A stretch of DNA of 64,000 nt from Levilactobacillus fujinensis (lineage in GTDB: Bacteria > Bacillota > Bacilli > Lactobacillales > Lactobacillaceae). Within the stretch, counting starts at the first letter, position 1. Each line of letters begins with the position of its first letter. The position numbers and the translations under genes were made by a program. Location: the NCBI RefSeq assembly GCF_003946335.1, contig NZ_RHNX01000001.1:62001-126000 (forward strand). The letters run 5' to 3'. Below the pieces are notes generated by a model. It saw nothing but the letters and a program-made list of their open reading frames with translations, did not search any database and was not told where the DNA came from. Shown here piece by piece: positions 5,558 to 43,158 of this stretch.

Positions 5558-7141
5558 TTAGCGACCCCCTTCCGTTGTATCCGCTGCCTTGGCCTCGGCT
5601 GCCCGAGCAATTGCCAATCGCTTGTTGCCACGATGTAACTCAACAATCGTCCACGTCAGCAAGGCTAAGACTGCAAAAATCAAGAAGTAAGCAATATCGT
5701 TGGCTAAAGCTAATTTTGCTCCGGTCACATTGCTTCCGAAGAAATCTTGAACCTGGCCTGGCATCCCCTCAAGGTTCAAACCAGTCAACGCAATCACGGA
5801 GAACCAGCCTAATATCTTGAGCCACCAGGAGTTCTTGAACCGTTCGCCCATTTCCAGCTTGCTGTCGGTCATCATCAACAGCGGCAGCATCGAGAATGGT
5901 AGGGCAAACGCCAGAAAGACTTGCGAGTTATTCATCAAATCATTCAAGGCCACGTGTTCGTCAATGGCACTCTTGCCGCTGGTCAACATGACGCAGACCA
6001 GAACGGGAATGACGGACAGTACCCGGGTAACTAAACGTCGTAACCACAATGGCATCCGCAGGTGAACGAAACCTTCCATGACGACCTGCCCGGACAACGT
6101 CCCGGTGATCGTGGAATTCTGGCCTGAAGCCAATAAAGCGACGGCGAACAAAGTAGATAAGACACCCGTTCGCGCCACACTGCTCAACAGACCATTGCTC
6201 ATCGTCGACGTATCAGATAAGGCTTGGAACAGCCCAAAGAACGATGGATCCTTGACGGCGCCAGTCTTGAAGACGGCAACCCCCATAATCAGCAGCAAGG
6301 CATTGACGAAGAAGGCAAACGTCAATTGGATGTTGGAGTCCAGGCCCGCAAACTTAACTGTCCGGGCCACGTCTTCCTCATCGTTGTGGTCAATTGACCG
6401 TGTCTGTGCGATTGCCGAGTGAAGATACAGGTTATGTGGCATCACGGTCGCCCCAATGATTCCCAGCGCACCATTTAACGGTGTCATCCCCGCAACGCTA
6501 GTCCCCGTCGAGAAGGTCTTGCCCGTAGGAATCAAGCCCCTGAACACGCCACCCCAATCGGGATTGGACAGTGCGACTTGGTAAACGAAGACGAACAGAA
6601 TCACCATGATGAGGCAAACGACAATCGCTTCAATCTTCCGGAACCCAACTTTGGTGAGTAATAAGAGCAGTAACACATCAAAAACCGTGATGAACACCGC
6701 AATAACTAACGGAATGTGGAATAGAAGATACAGCGCAATTGCCGCCCCAATGACTTCGGCAATATCGGTTGCCATGATGGCCAGTTCGGTCAACAGCCAG
6801 AGCACAATTCCCAATGACTTACTGGTCCGCGCACGAATCGCTTGGGCTAGATCCATCTGACTCACGATGCCAAGTTTAGCTGCCATGTATTGCAATAACA
6901 TCGCAATCAAACTTGACATCAAGATGACAGACATCAACAGGTACTGGAAGTTTTGACCACCGGTGATTGACGTTGACCAGTTGCCGGGATCCATATACCC
7001 CACTGCGACCAACGCACCAGGCCCTGAGTATGCGAATAACGTCCGCCAGAATCCAATATTCTTGGGAACCTTCACTGTCCCGTTGATTTCTTCCAACGAC
7101 CGACCGTTGGCATATTCAATCAACTTATGCTTCTTTACCAT
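5558..7141 (-). CDS. mntH: Nramp-family Mn2+/H+ symporter, copy 1
   Basis: Imports Mn2+ (and other divalent metals) with protons across the membrane. It has 527 residues and about 11-12 membrane segments, with both metal-binding signatures: DPGN at residues 51-54 and MPHN at 234-237. The start ATG follows GGGAGGGG. It is followed directly by usp. The protein is about 80% identical by eye to the 527-residue neighbour encoded at 7744. A TTTTTAGGG motif lies about 75 bp upstream (7214-7222), shared with the other mntH copy and mntR, which suggests Mn-dependent repression. Confidence 0.96.
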   Translation of the reverse strand: MVKKHKLIEYANGRSLEEINGTVKVPKNIGFWRTLFAYSGPGALVAVGYMDPGNWSTSITGGQNFQYLLMSVILMSSLIAMLLQYMAAKLGIVSQMDLAQAIRARTSKSLGIVLWLLTELAIMATDIAEVIGAAIALYLLFHIPLVIAVFITVFDVLLLLLLTKVGFRKIEAIVVCLIMVILFVFVYQVALSNPDWGGVFRGLIPTGKTFSTGTSVAGMTPLNGALGIIGATVMPHNLYLHSAIAQTRSIDHNDEEDVARTVKFAGLDSNIQLTFAFFVNALLLIMGVAVFKTGAVKDPSFFGLFQALSDTSTMSNGLLSSVARTGVLSTLFAVALLASGQNSTITGTLSGQVVMEGFVHLRMPLWLRRLVTRVLSVIPVLVCVMLTSGKSAIDEHVALNDLMNNSQVFLAFALPFSMLPLLMMTDSKLEMGERFKNSWWLKILGWFSVIALTGLNLEGMPGQVQDFFGSNVTGAKLALANDIAYFLIFAVLALLTWTIVELHRGNKRLAIARAAEAKAADTTEGGR

Positions 7142-7200
7142 GTTGCTCCCCTCCCTTTAGGACTAGGCCAAGTGTACGGCAAAATCAGCGTTAGTGGCAC

Positions 7201-7222
7201 TTTTTTTAATCATCCCTAAAAA
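7201..7222 (-). promoter_or_regulatory. candidate MntR operator of mntH copy 1
   Basis: Minus-strand TTTTTAGGG, ATGA, then TTAAAAAAA. The same T5AGGG-N4-(T/A)TAA pattern occurs at 9393-9410 and 9651-9668. Repressor identity is inferred from the nearby DtxR-family gene. Confidence 0.5.
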
Positions 7223-7251
7223 TAAATATGTAAGCGTTAACTTAAACCCAG

Positions 7252-7293
7252 CAAAAAAGCCGGCCGTGTCGCGTTAACGACACTTCCGGCTTG
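7252..7293 (-). terminator. terminator of the second usp-mntH cassette
   Basis: On the minus strand, AAGCCGGAAGTGTCG pairs with CGACACGGCCGGCTT (one mismatched pair position) and is followed by six T. It lies just after the usp stop at 7309 and upstream of mntH copy 1, separating the two cassettes. Confidence 0.85.
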
Positions 7294-7308
7294 GGAAAGT
7301 TTACTTGA

Positions 7309-7740
7309 CTATCTGACGACCATGACGGAAATTGGTGCGTACTTCGCCATGTAGGCCGCTTGACTCCCGAAGTAGCGACTGACGCCCTTCTTAGCAATCG
7401 ATCCAATCACTAACAAATCCGGCTGCACGTGAGGAATCACACTCTTAACAATGGTCTCCCCCGGTTCGCCTTCTGCAATGACCATCCGGACACTGGCAAC
7501 GCCAGCATCTTCAGCCTGTTGCTGATAACGTTGGACGTGTTCCTTTAGCTCATCACGTTCCCCGTGGACGTAATCGCTATCCAACGCCTGATAGACGTTC
7601 ATGTCATCGTGTTCCAACACGGAAACAATGATCAATTCCGCCGTATCCCGTTTGGCTTGATGAATGGCATAGTCAAATGCCAACAATGCATCGGCCGAGT
7701 CATCGACCCCCACTAGAATTCGTTTGAAAGTTTTAGCCAT
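7309..7740 (-). CDS. universal stress protein, copy 2 of the Mn cassette
   Basis: A 143-residue UspA-domain protein (FKRILVGVDDSADALLAF, GSIAKKGVSRYFGSQAAY), clearly the paralogue of the protein at 5122 with scattered substitutions over the whole length. AAGGAGG precedes the ATG, and it lies 3 bp behind mntH copy 2, so the two are co-transcribed. Its retention beside both transporter copies argues for a functional link with Mn uptake rather than chance. Confidence 0.92.
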   Translation of the reverse strand: MAKTFKRILVGVDDSADALLAFDYAIHQAKRDTAELIIVSVLEHDDMNVYQALDSDYVHGERDELKEHVQRYQQQAEDAGVASVRMVIAEGEPGETIVKSVIPHVQPDLLVIGSIAKKGVSRYFGSQAAYMAKYAPISVMVVR

Positions 7741-7743
7741 GGT

Positions 7744-9327
7744 CTACGCCTCCTTGGCAGGTTCGTCTTTACCGGCTGCTAATGCTGCGGCAACGCGTTT
7801 ACTCCCGCGCCGCAACTCGAGAATCGTCCAAGCCAACAGGGCTAGGATGGCAGCATCTAGGATGTAGGCAATCACGTTTGCAGTTGCCGTTTGGCTAGCC
7901 GTAATCGCACTACCATAGAACCCTTGAATGGAAGCGGGCATGTTGATCAGGTTTAGATAAGTCAAGGCTAAAACGGAAAACCAGCCCAATACCTTGATCC
8001 ACAAACTGTTCTTAAACCGTTTCCCCATTTCTAGCTTACTATCCGTCATCATCAACAACGGCAGCATTGAAAATGGCAAAGCAAACGCTAGAAAGACTTG
8101 TGAGTTGTTCATCAAATCATTCAAAGCCTCATGCTCATCCAACGCACTCTTACCACTGGTCAACATGACACAGATCAATACTGGAATCACAGAGATCAAT
8201 CGGGTGACTAACCGCCGTAACCAGAGTGGCATCCGCATGTGGACAAATCCTTCCATGATAACTTGACCCGTTAAGGTCCCGGTAATCGTCGAATTTTGCC
8301 CAGAAGCTAACAGGGCGACCGCGAACAGTGTTGAGAGTACCCCGGTTCGAGCCACACCGGCCAGCACACCATTGCTCATGGTGCTGGTATCGGATAAGGC
8401 TTGGAACAACCCAAAGAACGATGGGTCTTTGACGGAACCACTCTTGAAGACGGCAACCCCCATGATCAACAGCAAAGCATTCACGAAGAATGCTAAGGTC
8501 AGTTGAATGTTGGAGTCCCAGCTGGTGAATCTTACTGTTCGCGCCACATCTTCTTCATCGTTGTGGTCAATTTCCCGCGTCTGCGAAATTGCTGAATGCA
8601 GGTACAGGTTATGGGGCATGACCGTCGCCCCAATGATTCCTAAGGCCCCACTAATTGGCGTTTGACCACCGATTTTTGGTGTGGAAGCCACTGTCTTCAT
8701 GTTGGGGACTAACCCGCCGAAGACACCGCCCCAATCGGGATTGGACAAGGCCACTTCGTAAGCAAAGACCACCAAGATGACCAGAATCAGACAAACCACG
8801 ATGGCTTCGATCTTCCGGAAACCAATCTTGGTCAGCAACAAGAGTAGCAGGACATCAAGCACCGTAATGAATACGGCAATGATTAATGGAATATGGAACA
8901 ATAAGTACAGCGCAATTGCCGCCCCAATAACTTCGGCAATATCCGTCGCCATAATAGCAAATTCGGTTAAGATCCATAATACGATGCCTAGTGACTTGCT
9001 GGTTCGGGCACGAATTGCCTGAGCTAAGTCCATTTGGCTCACGATACCAAGTTTAGCTGCCATGTATTGCAGTAACATCGCAATCAAACTTGAAATCAAG
9101 ATAATCGACATCAATAAGTATTGGAAATTTTGACCACCAGTAATCGACGTTGACCAGTTACCTGGATCCATGTATCCCACTGCGACTAATGCACCAGGCC
9201 CGGAATACATGAACAATGTTTTCCAGAACCCTTTCCCCTTCGGTACTTTAACGGTACCGTTAATCTCTTCGAGCGAACGCCCATTGGCATATTCAATGAG
9301 TTTATGTTTCTTCGGTGTATCACTCAA
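7744..9327 (-). CDS. mntH: Nramp-family Mn2+/H+ symporter, copy 2
   Basis: An Nramp transporter with DPGN and MPHN metal-site motifs and the same topology as copy 1. I place the start at the TTG at 9327-9325 (MSDTPKKHKLIEYANG), 8 bases after GAAGGGGG. This gives 527 residues, exactly the length of copy 1, whereas the open frame extends 15 codons further without a ribosome site. Differences from copy 1 cluster in the loop near residues 203-222 and at the C-terminus. A TTTTTTAGGG motif lies 66 bp upstream next to an AT-rich promoter. Confidence 0.95.
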   Translation of the reverse strand: MSDTPKKHKLIEYANGRSLEEINGTVKVPKGKGFWKTLFMYSGPGALVAVGYMDPGNWSTSITGGQNFQYLLMSIILISSLIAMLLQYMAAKLGIVSQMDLAQAIRARTSKSLGIVLWILTEFAIMATDIAEVIGAAIALYLLFHIPLIIAVFITVLDVLLLLLLTKIGFRKIEAIVVCLILVILVVFAYEVALSNPDWGGVFGGLVPNMKTVASTPKIGGQTPISGALGIIGATVMPHNLYLHSAISQTREIDHNDEEDVARTVRFTSWDSNIQLTLAFFVNALLLIMGVAVFKSGSVKDPSFFGLFQALSDTSTMSNGVLAGVARTGVLSTLFAVALLASGQNSTITGTLTGQVIMEGFVHMRMPLWLRRLVTRLISVIPVLICVMLTSGKSALDEHEALNDLMNNSQVFLAFALPFSMLPLLMMTDSKLEMGKRFKNSLWIKVLGWFSVLALTYLNLINMPASIQGFYGSAITASQTATANVIAYILDAAILALLAWTILELRRGSKRVAAALAAGKDEPAKEA

Positions 9328-9392
9328 AATCAAGACCCCCTTCTGTTTCCTACAAACCCAATTGTACCCCAAAATTTGATTAGTTCAATATC

Positions 9393-9410
9393 TTTTTTAG
9401 GGTAGCTTAA
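9393..9410 (+). promoter_or_regulatory. candidate MntR operator of mntH copy 2
   Basis: TTTTTTAGGG, TAGC, TTAA on the plus strand, immediately downstream of a TTATAAAG-like -10 region for the minus-strand mntH. It is one of three copies in this locus, and its position fits repression by promoter blocking. Confidence 0.5.
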
Positions 9411-9532
9411 CTTTATAATCTAAATTAGTTAATTAATTATTACTTGCTGTATGCGGTTTCATTACCAGCAAATCAAGCTATACTTTTATTGTTATCGGCG
9501 TGATCAACCGGCTGAAATTTATTTTATTATTT

Positions 9533-9560
9533 TAAAAAAACGCCTATAATCAGGCGTTCT
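9533..9560 (-). terminator. orphan terminator-like hairpin between mntR and mntH copy 2
   Basis: On the minus strand, AACGCCTGATTATAGGCGTT is followed by a run of T. No gene upstream on that strand needs it, so it could be an attenuator in a long mntH leader or the end of a small RNA. Apart from the two TTTTTAGGG motifs, the remainder of the 9328-9731 gap is AT-rich and shows nothing else. Confidence 0.6.
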
Positions 9561-9650
9561 CCCCCTAATTTAACCGCTATTTTCAAATACTAGCTGATAA
9601 AAGTTTGCAACCTTTCCCATAGTCAGTTAGAATTTTAGTCGTTGAATATT

Positions 9651-9668
9651 ATTTTTAGGGGACCATAA
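9651..9668 (+). promoter_or_regulatory. candidate MntR operator upstream of mntR
   Basis: ATTTTTAGGG, GACC, ATAA, about 65 bp before the mntR start. It matches the motif before both mntH copies and suggests autoregulation. Confidence 0.45.
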
Positions 9669-9731
9669 ATTTTAACGACTTTTCTAGCTACTTCATCACC
9701 AGTGGCTAGATTCATCTGGGGAGTGAGTCAC

Positions 9732-10430
9732 ATGTTAAATCATCAGAATTCTTATCTTAAAATCATTGCCGAGTGTAGCTTTGCTCGGCCCCGCGTCAGC
9801 AATAAACAAATTATTCATTTCGCCAACGTTTCACCAGCCACCGTCACCGAAACGACCCGCATCTTGCAGAAAAAGGGACTCGTGGATCGCCACCGTTATA
9901 CCGGCGTGACCCTCACCGCATTAGGGGAACGCCTCGCATGCCAACTCCTCTACAACTACCGGCTCTGTGAAGTCTTCATGGCCGAGCACCTACGACTCCC
10001 TTTAAACGCAGTTCCTGCTCAGGCCTGGGCCGTCGCCGCAAGCCTAACATCCGAAACAGCAATTGCCTTAAACGACTATCTAGATCATCCGCAGCAAAGC
10101 CCATTTGGTGGTACCCTCGATACCACACAAATGATGGCTGACACTGACGTCACACGACTAAGCGACGTTACTGAACCTGCCACCATCACATTGACCAGCT
10201 ATCTGGAAACGCCGGGCCTTATCGACTATCTTCAACACCTCCAGTTACCCCTCGGAGTCACCCTAAGCGTCCGCAAACGCGATTCGGCCCTGAACCTCAT
10301 CTACCTAGAAACGGCCCAGCAGCGTGAAATTACGGTCAATTTAAACGCCGCCGACTATATCTACACGGCGCCGGCAGAAACGCCTATCACCGAGTCCCTG
10401 ATTACCAACCAAACCATCGGTGAAAACTAA
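9732..10430 (+). CDS. mntR: DtxR/MntR-family metal-dependent regulator
   Basis: A 232-residue regulator. It has an N-terminal winged helix (about residues 1-65, with NVSPATVTETTRILQKKG as recognition region), then the dimerisation/metal domain with the HxxSE-like ASLTSETAIALNDYLDHP segment typical of DtxR/MntR, and a C-terminal SH3-like part. The start is the ATG at 9732 after GGGGAGTGAG; an earlier in-frame ATG lies upstream of this site. It is divergent from mntH copy 2 and the obvious candidate repressor of both Mn cassettes. MntR rather than an iron regulator is inferred from context. Confidence 0.85.
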   Translation: MLNHQNSYLKIIAECSFARPRVSNKQIIHFANVSPATVTETTRILQKKGLVDRHRYTGVTLTALGERLACQLLYNYRLCEVFMAEHLRLPLNAVPAQAWAVAASLTSETAIALNDYLDHPQQSPFGGTLDTTQMMADTDVTRLSDVTEPATITLTSYLETPGLIDYLQHLQLPLGVTLSVRKRDSALNLIYLETAQQREITVNLNAADYIYTAPAETPITESLITNQTIGEN

Positions 10431-39055: not shown

Positions 39056-40378
39056 TCAGTCTTTCGTCTCATGCTCTTTTCGCCACTTCTTCACATAATC
39101 TAAGCGCTTCTTAAACAAGTCCTCGCGCCCCTGATTGGTAGGCTGATAATACTCATGACCTACGAGTGAATCCGGCAACGTCTGCATGGTCGTCAACTTA
39201 TCCTTGGTATCGTGCGCGTATTGATAGTCCTTACCATAATCCAGGTCTTTCATCAGTTTAGTCGGTGCGTTACGAATCTGCAGTGGCACCGGCTCGTCAC
39301 GCGTTTTCTGGACGTCCTTCTTCGCCGCTAAACGGGCCTTATAAATGGCATTGGACTTCGGTGCCAAAGCTAAATAGGTTACGGCTTCCGTTAAATGAAC
39401 GTCACACTCCGGCATCCCCAAAAACTGGCAGGCCTGAAAGACATTCACGGCAACGTTGAGGGCGTTGGTATCGGCTAAGCCAATATCTTCGCTAGCAAAC
39501 CGCACGAGCCGCCGCGCAATGTACAACGGGTCTTCACCACCCTCTAACATTCGTGACAACCAATAGATGGCAGCGTCCGGGTCACTGTTCCGCATTGATT
39601 TATGGAGCGCAGAAATGATGTTGTAATGCTCCTCACCGGATTTATCATAGAGCACAAATTTCTTCGTAATCAACTGCTTCAGGTCGTTCATATCGACCGT
39701 CACTTGATCACCCTGCTTGTCGCCATTGAGCACAGCCATCTCCAGCGTGTTCAAGGCGGTGCGGGCATCCCCATTGGCAAATTCTGCGATGGCTCGTAGC
39801 TCGTCATCACCAATTTTAACGTTGCCTTTAAACCCCTCCGAACTGGCTAGCGCATTGGTCAGAAGTTGTTCAATGTCGGTCGTCTCCAACGATTTTAACA
39901 CGAATACTTTACACCGCGAGAGTAGCGCCGAATTGATTTCAAACGAAGGGTTCTCAGTAGTCGCCCCAATCAAAACGATACTTCCCCGTTCGACGTACGG
40001 CAGGAAAGCATCCTGTTGTGCCTTATTGAAGCGGTGGATTTCATCGACGAACACGATGGTCTTCTCACCGACCGCTAAGTCGTTACCCGCCTGTTTCATA
40101 ATCTTCTTAATTTGACTGATACTACTGTCGACCGCACTGAACCGCAGAAACTTGGCCTGCGTTTGCCGAGCAATGATTTCGGCCAATGTCGTCTTCCCCA
40201 CACCGGGTGGCCCCCAGAAAATCATCGACGAGACTTGGTCATTTTCAATCAACTCACGGAGAATCTTGCCGGGACCCAACAGGTGTGTCTGTCCGACGAA
40301 TTCCGCTAACGTCCGTGGCCGCACCCGACTGGCTAGCGGCGTATTCTGTTGGTTCGCAAATAACGATTCCTGCTCCAC
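39056..40378 (-). CDS. rarA: replication-associated recombination protein A (AAA+ ATPase)
   Basis: 440 residues, MgsA/WRNIP1 family, acts at stalled replication forks. Walker A GPPGVGKT at 56-63, Walker B FVDEIHRFNKAQQD near 107-120, and a C-terminal tetramerisation domain. I chose the GTG at 40378 because the product then opens MEQESLF...ASRVRPRTLAEFVGQ, as RarA proteins do; the frame extends 49 codons further into the downstream end of the DUF2075 gene region. Confidence 0.94.
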   Translation of the reverse strand: MEQESLFANQQNTPLASRVRPRTLAEFVGQTHLLGPGKILRELIENDQVSSMIFWGPPGVGKTTLAEIIARQTQAKFLRFSAVDSSISQIKKIMKQAGNDLAVGEKTIVFVDEIHRFNKAQQDAFLPYVERGSIVLIGATTENPSFEINSALLSRCKVFVLKSLETTDIEQLLTNALASSEGFKGNVKIGDDELRAIAEFANGDARTALNTLEMAVLNGDKQGDQVTVDMNDLKQLITKKFVLYDKSGEEHYNIISALHKSMRNSDPDAAIYWLSRMLEGGEDPLYIARRLVRFASEDIGLADTNALNVAVNVFQACQFLGMPECDVHLTEAVTYLALAPKSNAIYKARLAAKKDVQKTRDEPVPLQIRNAPTKLMKDLDYGKDYQYAHDTKDKLTTMQTLPDSLVGHEYYQPTNQGREDLFKKRLDYVKKWRKEHETKD

Positions 40379-40460
40379 GAGGATCACCGTCCTTTTACCT
40401 TTAATGATAAGCTTGCCAGACAGAAAAGGCCAATGCTGGTAATCTGCATTGACCACTTTT

Positions 40461-42182
40461 CTAGCGACTTGCGTGTTGTAACGCGGACCGTAATTCATTG
40501 TCAACTGCGTAAATATAGAGTCCATTCACGCCTCGTGTCAACAAAACATTCAACTCATTTGGTAAGAGTTCATCGTCAACGTGTTGTTTCGTTCCGTCCG
40601 GCATGGTCCGATTACGTGTCGCATTGGTGTTCTCACTGGCCGTTGGGTCAAAAATAATTTTACCCTCACGATATTTGACCGAGGGACCGATAATAACCCC
40701 GCTGTAATTCAGATCAAATCCTTGAATCGTGTACGTTGACCCAACTTCGCCTAAAGTTTGATGTTGCTCAGCCCAAGCTAAATGCTTCGCCTGTCCCCGT
40801 TGATCAGTGGCTAGAGGCAATTGAAGATTCCATGGCAATGAAAAATCACCTACTGTGACCTTATCTAGGTGGTCATCTTTAAGCTTAAAGGGCCAATCAA
40901 ACGTTGCCAAAACTCGGGATAAACCATGCGATTCATCCTGTGCTCGCGCAACAATGGCCTGATACATCGTCTGGGGATCATCAAAAATCCGTAGATCATA
41001 CTGATCGTCCAGAGGAATCTTATCCACTACTCGCCGGTCAATCAAGCTATGTAGCCAGGTAGTCGTCGCTTCACTAGCATTCATGCGCAACTGTTGTTTG
41101 AACTTAATTAGATTACCCCGTTGCGCCGCTTTATTCTCCAGTTTCTGAATCTCACTGGCCGTTAAATAACCTTCCGTTTTCAACATCTGCTTAGCATCAA
41201 ATACCGCTACAGTCAGCTTCGCCCGTGCCATGATGTCCTGTAACTGATTTTGTCCGCGGTAGGATTGTTTCCCTTGTGTCCACAGCAAGTGGGCTTCATC
41301 AACCAGCACGACATCGACCGGTTCCCTTGGGTCGTGGTGATTGATAAAGGTTGTGGGCTTACTGACATTAGCGACCTTCATTCCCAGCTTTTCCGCAATG
41401 TTCTGATACACCTTGACCTGTTCATCGTGGTTGACCAGTAAGTAGATATTCGCTGTCTTAAAATCGGTATAGTTTAAGTCTTCTCCCAGCTGCCAAAGTT
41501 GATAGAACAGGGTGCTTAACAAGACCGTTTTCCCGGAACCGGCTTCCCCTTCAACTAAGATTAGTTGTTGCTTTTCTTGTGCTCGGAAAACGGCTTTGAT
41601 ACGCCGAAGAATTAGGTCGCGCGCATTGTCCTGCTCGCGCGTCAGCTCATGAAAGGGTGAGGCCTTGAACAGCGCGGAGTCGCGGACAACTGATTCGATT
41701 GGGAATAAATTGGGGTCAAACTGGTGTAGTTTACGCCAAATAGCAGAGAAAATCGCATCCTTTTCATCGACGGTGTAGTACTTATTCTGCTGATTTTCAC
41801 GCCGGTTATTTAGCTTCTTAACACTTTCCACTCCGGACATATAGAGCATCATGCTGTTTTCAATATCCAGCGTTAATGACTTATTGAAGTGAGGATGACC
41901 AATTACTAGAAGCTGAGAATCCGCGCTATTCGCCAGATACTGCCAGTCTTGGCGGTCATGCACATCATCATCCAAGTGCTGGCGGGTTCGTTGTTCAATA
42001 TCATTGGTTTCACCAACATACACCTGATACGCACGTGGTTTTTCTTGGTCGTAAACAATATAAACCGTTGGATACTCTAAAAGAAGTTCAACATGCTCGC
42101 CCTTAACCCTTTCCTTTATATCAGCCAGTCCTTGGTGACTAAAACCGACCTCTTCAATGACTGGCTTAGGTGATTTTGCCAT
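40461..42182 (-). CDS. GIY-YIG/DUF2075 fusion NTPase
   Basis: 573 residues. The N-terminal GIY-YIG-like nuclease domain (about 36-135) has YIVYD (41-45), YVGETN (55-60), Arg65 and Glu108 in LDIENSMML, then LNN. The following DUF2075 helicase-like NTPase has Walker A GEAGSGKT (212-219), Walker B VVLVDEAH (291-298) and a superfamily-1 motif VI-like LNVLLTRGVNGLYIY near 550. It is 12 bp downstream of the MazG-like gene and clearly in one operon. Nuclease-helicase proteins of this kind suggest nucleic-acid processing or defence; no function is established from the sequence. Confidence 0.85.
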   Translation of the reverse strand: MAKSPKPVIEEVGFSHQGLADIKERVKGEHVELLLEYPTVYIVYDQEKPRAYQVYVGETNDIEQRTRQHLDDDVHDRQDWQYLANSADSQLLVIGHPHFNKSLTLDIENSMMLYMSGVESVKKLNNRRENQQNKYYTVDEKDAIFSAIWRKLHQFDPNLFPIESVVRDSALFKASPFHELTREQDNARDLILRRIKAVFRAQEKQQLILVEGEAGSGKTVLLSTLFYQLWQLGEDLNYTDFKTANIYLLVNHDEQVKVYQNIAEKLGMKVANVSKPTTFINHHDPREPVDVVLVDEAHLLWTQGKQSYRGQNQLQDIMARAKLTVAVFDAKQMLKTEGYLTASEIQKLENKAAQRGNLIKFKQQLRMNASEATTTWLHSLIDRRVVDKIPLDDQYDLRIFDDPQTMYQAIVARAQDESHGLSRVLATFDWPFKLKDDHLDKVTVGDFSLPWNLQLPLATDQRGQAKHLAWAEQHQTLGEVGSTYTIQGFDLNYSGVIIGPSVKYREGKIIFDPTASENTNATRNRTMPDGTKQHVDDELLPNELNVLLTRGVNGLYIYAVDNELRSALQHASR

Positions 42183-42194
42183 CTCAAAGGCCCC

Positions 42195-42515
42195 CTAGTC
42201 CTGATCAAACTGCCAATGACGATGCACATTGATTTCGTGTTTCTGCTGAACCAATTCATTTGGTGTTACACCGAGCTGGTCACACATGTAATAAAGGTAC
42301 GTCAAAGCATCAGCCATTTCCAATTTAAGATTGGTCGTTTGCTTAGCTGAGAGGTTCTTCCGGTTATCTTGCCACAGAAAAATTTCATTAACTTCTGCAA
42401 CTTCAACTGACAATGCTCGGGCTAACGCTGGCAGCGTATGGTATTTTCCCCATCCCCGTTGGTCCCGAAAATCTCGTAGTTCCTGCATCACTTGCGAATA
42501 ATCTAAATCAGCCAT
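42195..42515 (-). CDS. MazG-like nucleotide pyrophosphohydrolase
   Basis: 106 residues, all-alpha NTP pyrophosphatase of the MazG/iMazG type. The metal-binding pattern is ExxE (EVAEVNE, about 37-43) then ExxD (EMADAL, about 67-72). GGAGGAG precedes the ATG. It would hydrolyse a nucleoside triphosphate to the monophosphate and PPi. First gene of the pair with the GIY-YIG/DUF2075 protein. Confidence 0.88.
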   Translation of the reverse strand: MADLDYSQVMQELRDFRDQRGWGKYHTLPALARALSVEVAEVNEIFLWQDNRKNLSAKQTTNLKLEMADALTYLYYMCDQLGVTPNELVQQKHEINVHRHWQFDQD

Positions 42516-42762
42516 CGTCTCACTCCTCCATTTCGTCCTAATTGCTTTAAATTATACCATTTAGTCCAATTGATTGGCCGACAAAGTTCGTCCTCAAGGA
42601 CTTTCAGATGCTGGACACATTACCGTTTGTTTAATCAATTAAATAACTATTAGACCAAGCGGATTATCCTGTCATCGCACCCGATTAGTCCTATGATTAT
42701 GACGATAATTCACGTAGTATGAAGATAGTATTTCCGTTTGAAAAACTAGGAGGTTATTGCTG

Positions 42763-43158
42763 ATGAAATATCTTTATCCAGCTCTCTTCACTCGTGAGTT
42801 AACCGGTCAAATCAATGTCACTTTTCCTGATTTACCACGCGTCTACGTCTCTGGTCAAGATATCGCTGACGCCCTTAGTTTGGCCCAGAATTCACTAACC
42901 GATTACCTATCATCTGTAAATGACATTCAGGACACGTTGCCACTGCCAACTGACCCGTTTTTAATTCCTCACAATGACAATCAGTTAGTTGTTCTAATTA
43001 CCGCTAATTCTAAGGCCTCCCATCATCTTGTAGCCAATCAGCAGGTCCAGATAACCGTGACCATTCCCAAGTACCTGGACGATCAGGCTATTACTGAACA
43101 TATTGACCTCTCATCTGTTTTAACAGCAGCATTAAAAACTAAACTCAACGTTCACTAA
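42763..43158 (+). CDS. HicB-family antitoxin-like protein without HicA
   Basis: 131 residues from the ATG at 42763 (AGGAGG 9 bases upstream). The N-terminal part, KYLYPALFTRELTGQINVTFPDLPRVYVSGQDIADALSLAQNSLTDYL, is the partial RNase-H fold of HicB antitoxins. The C-terminal part (about 80-131) has no clear DNA-binding motif. No hicA-like gene with a GSH motif lies beside it. The secreted GH20 gene follows 34 bp later and is probably co-transcribed. Confidence 0.75.
   Translation: MKYLYPALFTRELTGQINVTFPDLPRVYVSGQDIADALSLAQNSLTDYLSSVNDIQDTLPLPTDPFLIPHNDNQLVVLITANSKASHHLVANQQVQITVTIPKYLDDQAITEHIDLSSVLTAALKTKLNVH

Follow-up and report, generated by a model that had tools for sequence, protein, structure and literature searches.

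The stretch of Levilactobacillus fujinensis DNA analysed here (64,000 nucleotides, contig NZ_RHNX01000001.1, positions 62,001 to 126,000; hereafter the window) comes from a fermented-food bacterium and carries a pair of genes that probably serves in defence. The larger gene (40461..42182, minus strand) encodes a 573-residue protein with a GIY-YIG nuclease at residues ~37-116 and a superfamily 1 (SF1) helicase of family PF09848 at ~180-573. The smaller one (42195..42515, minus strand), 12 bp upstream, encodes a 106-residue MazG-like nucleoside triphosphate pyrophosphohydrolase of the DCTPP1 type. We tentatively propose that the pair is a restriction-type module in which a DNA-tracking nuclease is combined with a sanitizer of modified deoxycytidine triphosphate (dCTP). 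A defence role of some kind is considerably more secure than this specific scheme and, granted such a role, the chance that MazG is the sanitizer comes close to even. The proposal builds on the domains, the intact active sites, the conserved pairing, the spread across genera, the defence-rich neighbourhoods of many copies and a MazG gene that adjoins a SauUSI-type restriction enzyme. We infer DNA as the target, the dependence on modification and the substrate of MazG.

According to the proposal, the SF1 motor would bind foreign DNA of phages or plasmids and move along it, and the GIY-YIG nuclease would cut the DNA so tracked. MazG would hydrolyse dCTP-like nucleotides, most likely 5-methyl- or 5-hydroxymethyl-dCTP, and this cleaning of the dCTP pool would keep out of host DNA the modification on which cutting depends. 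If the nuclease recognises modified cytosine, a sanitizer encoded next to it would shield the host. In this view the pair would be the counterpart of the SauUSI-type modification-dependent enzymes and their NUDIX partner.

To describe the family we used a profile of the N-terminal part of the nuclease-helicase (E≤0.001), which matched in 117 of 397 genomes of the family, 70 of 295 of the order and 6 of 398 of the phylum, the family and order samples overlapping. One hundred regions, a hand-picked subset of these matches, were fetched and comprise 85 close and 15 divergent relatives. Set A1 consisted of the window protein and 16 of 20 loci, leaving out the near-duplicates L038 and L044 and the broken frames L054 and L057. 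The GIY-YIG residues Y41, Y55, G57, R65 and E108, which include the two tyrosines, the arginine and the catalytic glutamate, are conserved without exception in the 85 close and the 15 divergent relatives, and the nuclease part conforms to the GIY-YIG fold, with TVY instead of GIY as the first motif of the window's protein. The initial annotation, made from the letters of the window, had described the two adjacent genes, the 12-bp gap and the presence of Arg65 and Glu108, all of which we confirm. The PF09848 (SLFN-g3_helicase) domain is full length (309.9 bits, profile positions 2-354 of 354); its Walker A/B and later motif residues are present, with K218, D295, E296 and R366 kept in all close and divergent relatives and R550 in 83 of the 85 close ones, the remaining two having gaps. 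A solved-structure profile search with the N-terminal part returned a weak match to I-TevI (E 0.73), one unrelated entry and nothing else, and in a fold comparison of the whole model the listed matches spanned residues 128-573 only or little beyond. NCBIfam and PHROGs contained no informative family for the protein.

The MazG partner has the metal site and the pocket residues of a DCTPP1-type enzyme. Its metal ligands E38, E41, E66 and D69 (ExxE plus ExxD) are invariant in the 69 partners found, as are W22, H26, W48, Y73 and K92, and N96 is present in 65 of the 69. Residues W22, H26, E38, E41, W48, E66, D69, Y73, K92 and N96 align to W47, H51, E63, E66, W73, E95, D98, Y102, K121 and N125 of RS21-C6 (numbers counted from the alignment), positions that we take to form its substrate pocket. 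Among solved relatives 4qgp ('pyrophosphatase') ranked first, followed by RS21-C6 and DCTPP1. MazG had no match in PADLOC-DB 2.0.0 at E≤0.1 and no informative family in NCBIfam, and a domain scan revealed no sensor, switch or sensing domain. By its residues it thus resembles a pool-cleaning dCTP pyrophosphatase such as RS21-C6/DCTPP1. A passage of PMC10742078 names E. coli Orf135, mouse RS21-C6 and human DCTPP1 as hydrolases of 5-methyl-dCTP, and according to a part of PMC3744803 E. coli MutT is weak on this nucleotide and NudG ~100-fold better.

We analysed how regularly the two genes occur together. Named relatives at 93-94% identity place the host in Levilactobacillus. The full-length nuclease-helicase is present in 11 of 35 Levilactobacillus genomes, and a MazG orthologue adjoins it in the same 11; the other 24 genomes have one weak match (E 3e-4) and no strong one. 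In the wider Lactobacillales sample, a MazG gene is adjacent in 62 of the 85 close relatives and in 7 of the 15 divergent ones, so that the co-occurrence for which the initial annotation had proposed a check is borne out in the genus and for most close relatives. Among the close relatives MazG lies downstream at 33 loci, upstream at 21 and upstream in divergent orientation at 8. On a gene tree in which genera and families are mixed, the arrangement must have switched 7 times or more among the 70 rows with a partner. The distances of the nuclease-helicases and their MazGs correlate (Mantel r 0.31, reached in none of 2000 permutations; 0.16 when only pairs from different genera are taken). In a tree with few columns, MazGs from the divergent subfamily are placed among those of close-subfamily loci, which suggests partner exchange. 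As controls, 16 loci of GIY-less PF09848 paralogues had no MazG in flanks of ~1.5 kb, 40 random 13-kb regions gave one weak match (2.6e-4), and 20 genomes of the family lacking the nuclease-helicase had no strong MazG copy (best 7e-8). Twenty-three close carriers have no intact MazG next to the nuclease-helicase; a strong copy (E<1e-20) exists in the genome of 8 of them, in one case adjacent and interrupted by a stop. A mainly phage-borne gene was not supported: the phage collection gave only 3 matches, one of which covers 93% of the query and lies in an unverified faecal scaffold. A pattern scan of viral contigs, which is able to miss relatives, found 5 loci, including a close one (L293, 45%) with its own MazG.

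The family is patchy, occurs on plasmids and has many copies among defence genes. We compared 40 of the 85 close loci, those on contigs >80 kb, with 40 random points on the same contigs, taking genes (called as longest non-overlapping open reading frames) within three genes of each. The 239 genes flanking the loci matched 129 and 104 PADLOC families in two batches, compared with 4 and 24 for 231 control genes (232 less one of 3,924 residues); these tallies count families, not loci, may repeat between batches and are inflated by large model families. Among those listed, the flank matches include models for Cas9, Cas1, Cas2, a type IV enzyme, a cytosine methyltransferase, DISARM DrmA and a type I/ISP enzyme. 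On plasmids, all five copies inspected among 10 records with ≥80% coverage lie within 10 kb of restriction or CRISPR genes: a NUDIX gene and a helicase (SauUSI-type by profile), type III-A CRISPR, HsdS/HsdM, a restriction endonuclease with DUF262, and an HNH protein with an adenine methylase. Removing 7 matches with E of 8e-12 or weaker left 110 carriers in the family, of which 26 have a C5-methyltransferase gene; in 10 of these 26 it lies within 10 kb of the nuclease-helicase gene, where ~0.28 would be expected from 31 such genes and assumed 2.2-Mb genomes. The constant housekeeping context that the initial annotation had named as evidence against defence is, overall, not what the relatives show. 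Three side observations concern individual neighbours. On the L. plantarum plasmid NZ_CP028230.1 (11823-16753 of locus L247) the pair is followed by two hypothetical genes and one for a DUF2357 protein, the middle one of the three matching the PADLOC candidate PDC-M26A. In one genome (L121, 8688-14116) the pair lies beside genes for DrmA of the DISARM type and for a protein containing an MrfA Zn-binding domain. In the window, a short reading frame at 42757-43158, upstream of the pair and divergent from it, has a HicB-like antitoxin match of 26.0 bits (cut-off 27).

One neighbour recurs. At 7 of the 100 loci a NUDIX gene and a gene for an enzyme of 948-1010 residues, truncated in one case by the end of the contig, are found at a distance of one to six genes. 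In PADLOC this enzyme is matched by the type IV restriction model (9e-269), and it has, in L127, PLD, ResIII/helicase and DUF3427 domains, presumably the design of SauUSI. That assignment is consistent with the description in parts of PMC7913695, where SauUSI is a PLD nuclease with a superfamily 2 (SF2) motor and a target-recognition domain that translocates and cleaves DNA containing 5-methyl- or 5-hydroxymethylcytosine; DUF3427 is linked with SauUSI in a passage of PMC7159879. The NUDIX protein matches the PADLOC candidate PDC-S07, and its best solved matches are a mutT protein, a probable pyrophosphohydrolase and a CTP pyrophosphohydrolase, which fits a role as modified-dCTP sanitizer but does not prove it. 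A figure legend of PMC7641849 places a MutT homologue beside SauUSI homologues, and in 12 regions with SauUSI-type enzymes that we sampled, NUDIX lies directly upstream in 4, one region starting too close to tell. MazG itself adjoins such an enzyme: in L298 (G183:C1:1672000-1686000, 6066-9811) genes for NUDIX, the SauUSI-type enzyme and MazG follow one another on one strand, separated by 12 and 8 bp, the type IV restriction-type enzyme being in place of the GIY-YIG helicase. We considered NUDIX as a stand-in for a missing MazG and found no support, as NUDIX and SauUSI lie near 2 of 31 MazG-less and 5 of 69 MazG-bearing loci. A faecal scaffold filed as phage (MT836409.1, L292, 1408-6662) has a SauUSI-type enzyme, MazG and a GIY-YIG helicase in a row; the scaffold may be bacterial rather than phage.

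By its sequence, then, the nuclease-helicase appears to be a defence enzyme of a known kind, here with a nucleotide-handling partner. Like SauUSI with its MutT/NUDIX protein, the pair joins a single-chain nuclease and helicase-type motor with a small nucleoside triphosphate pyrophosphohydrolase, and the two systems are physically close at several loci. They differ in their parts (PLD, an SF2 motor, DUF3427 and NUDIX in the one, GIY-YIG, SF1 and MazG in the other), with no match to PLD or DUF3427 in the nuclease-helicase at E≤0.1, and in that the target of SauUSI (5-methyl- and 5-hydroxymethylcytosine) is known, whereas that of the nuclease-helicase is a prediction. Its best PADLOC match is Nhi (8.8e-12), a nuclease joined to a helicase, but this match is limited to helicase residues 179-405 (profile 182-365 of 470) and does not include the nuclease part of Nhi, for which we know of no MazG partner. 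DCTPP1/RS21-C6, whose metal-binding and pocket residues MazG shares, is a mammalian house-cleaning enzyme and to our knowledge has no nuclease partner. Remote similarity was seen to PD-T4-3 (PDB 9u75), a restriction endonuclease specific for 5-hydroxymethylcytosine, for which we know of neither a helicase nor a MazG. Among the papers listed by our searches of open-access full texts, we recognised none as describing the pair. Section 8 of PMC13092281 includes MazG among predicted defence domains without experimental validation, and the pair may be among the MazG systems of Fig. 6F in that paper.

A broader idea is possible, if somewhat doubtful: modification-dependent nuclease-helicases of two unrelated designs (GIY-YIG/SF1 and PLD/SF2) may each have recruited a pyrophosphohydrolase of unrelated fold (MazG and NUDIX) to discriminate self from non-self. 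If so, MazG and NUDIX would destroy modified dCTP before it could be incorporated into the host's DNA and make that DNA a target, and might in addition starve phages whose genomes are modified. The two-gene module is compact, its active sites are conserved, and it is found across Lactobacillales, recurrently near a modification-dependent restriction type. It offers a concrete and cheap way to ask whether nucleotide enzymes in defence starve the phage, gate a nuclease or protect host DNA.

Several observations weigh against a modification-dependent defence module. A domain scan of the nuclease-helicase revealed no domain that could read modified DNA. By a title cited in PMC3744803, Orf135 accepts CTP and dCTP as well, and the specificity of MazG therefore cannot be read from its family. 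The presence of the GIY gene does not correlate with that of SauUSI (28/99 vs 79/260, the genome universe being approximated as handles up to G372). C5-methyltransferases are not depleted in carriers of the nuclease-helicase (26/110 vs 66/287, p 0.89), and some of their genes adjoin its gene; carriers of SauUSI, taken as a calibrator, likewise show no depletion (23/107 vs 61/252), so that this result counts neither for nor against modification dependence. The pairing is incomplete: MazG is adjacent in only two of the five plasmid copies, and in 15 of the 85 close carriers the whole genome lacks a strong MazG. Six of eight non-adjacent MazG copies that we fetched and checked for MazG, NUDIX, SauUSI and GIY-helicase profiles have no GIY-helicase or SauUSI match in the 12 kb fetched; one of the six has a NUDIX gene 3.7 kb away, and the non-adjacent copy L304 is marked as containing a stop. 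The PADLOC matches of the flanking genes include look-alikes, such as PolC in L144 against DEDDh (5e-39), and the commonest recurring neighbours are ordinary, with an ABC-transporter-like ATPase at 18 of the 100 loci. In Levilactobacillus the pair sits in a brnQ/rarA/arsC neighbourhood that several relatives have without the pair, and the pair of the window has ten flanking genes of which none matches PADLOC at 1e-10. Defence-rich surroundings, for which the initial annotation had also proposed a check, are found around many relatives and not in these ten genes.

The same domains and gene linkage would also suit a system in which MazG drains deoxynucleotides, dCTP in particular, during infection and stalls phage replication while the nuclease-helicase cuts DNA. 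The intact metal site of all 69 partners agrees with such depletion, as does the prediction, not validated, of MazG as a defence domain by DefensePredictor in a section of PMC13092281. We nevertheless consider it unlikely, MazG being small, of the house-cleaning DCTPP1 type and free of a visible sensor or switch; strong toxicity is also improbable because six of the eight non-adjacent copies are kept without either nuclease nearby. It is less likely still that MazG is a regulator, gating the nuclease-helicase by adjusting the level of a nucleotide or by removing a nucleotide signal. The Gabija nuclease, which responds to nucleoside triphosphate levels, offers an analogy, and the Walker residues kept in all 85 close relatives and the strict pairing within the genus are in keeping with it. 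However, the 15 close carriers without a strong MazG have kept the checked catalytic residues like the rest of the 85, and no sensing domain was seen. Protection of host DNA by a modified-dCTP sanitizer remains the reading that we prefer.

A housekeeping pair for DNA repair or replication stress that works with RarA appears improbable. Within Levilactobacillus rarA (positions found by partial matches) lies next to the pair in 7 of the 11 carriers, but no rarA was among the neighbours at the 100 loci outside the genus. A partnership with RarA was therefore rejected as a general feature, and the link to this repair gene drawn in the initial annotation is local; of its defence reading, the co-occurrence and the surroundings of many relatives hold. 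Housekeeping would also be at odds with the patchy distribution (11/35 genomes in the genus and 110/397 in the family after weak matches were dropped), the plasmid copies, the mixing of genera and families in the tree and the defence-rich flanks. An RNA-targeting pair is the least probable alternative: the motor shares the SF1 fold of SLFN11/SLFN14, eukaryotic factors acting on tRNA or single-stranded DNA, and tRNA or another RNA might be the substrate of the nuclease, but Schlafen proteins have another nuclease, and their core gave no match in the nuclease-helicase at E≤0.1, GIY-YIG being in its place.

Further observations concern rarA and the PF09848 paralogues of the genus. The rarA reading frame as called mechanically (39056-40525 of the window) extends over the 3' end of the nuclease-helicase gene; most genus relatives align to it only from about residue 42-50 onward, so that translation probably begins further downstream and the overlap is an artefact. 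All 15 Levilactobacillus genomes compared have a further rarA copy at 1.4-4.4 kb from a short (~393 residues) GIY-less PF09848 paralogue (for example G027:C43:115178-119392), a point in favour of housekeeping in that rarA and PF09848 helicases thus meet twice in this genus. Another PF09848 paralogue, of ~410 residues, lies ~1.8 kb from the contig start in five genomes (G001:C2, G016:C5, G029:C27, G031:C3 and G033:C12), a near-constant distance, as if it stood next to an element present in several copies, for example an rRNA operon.
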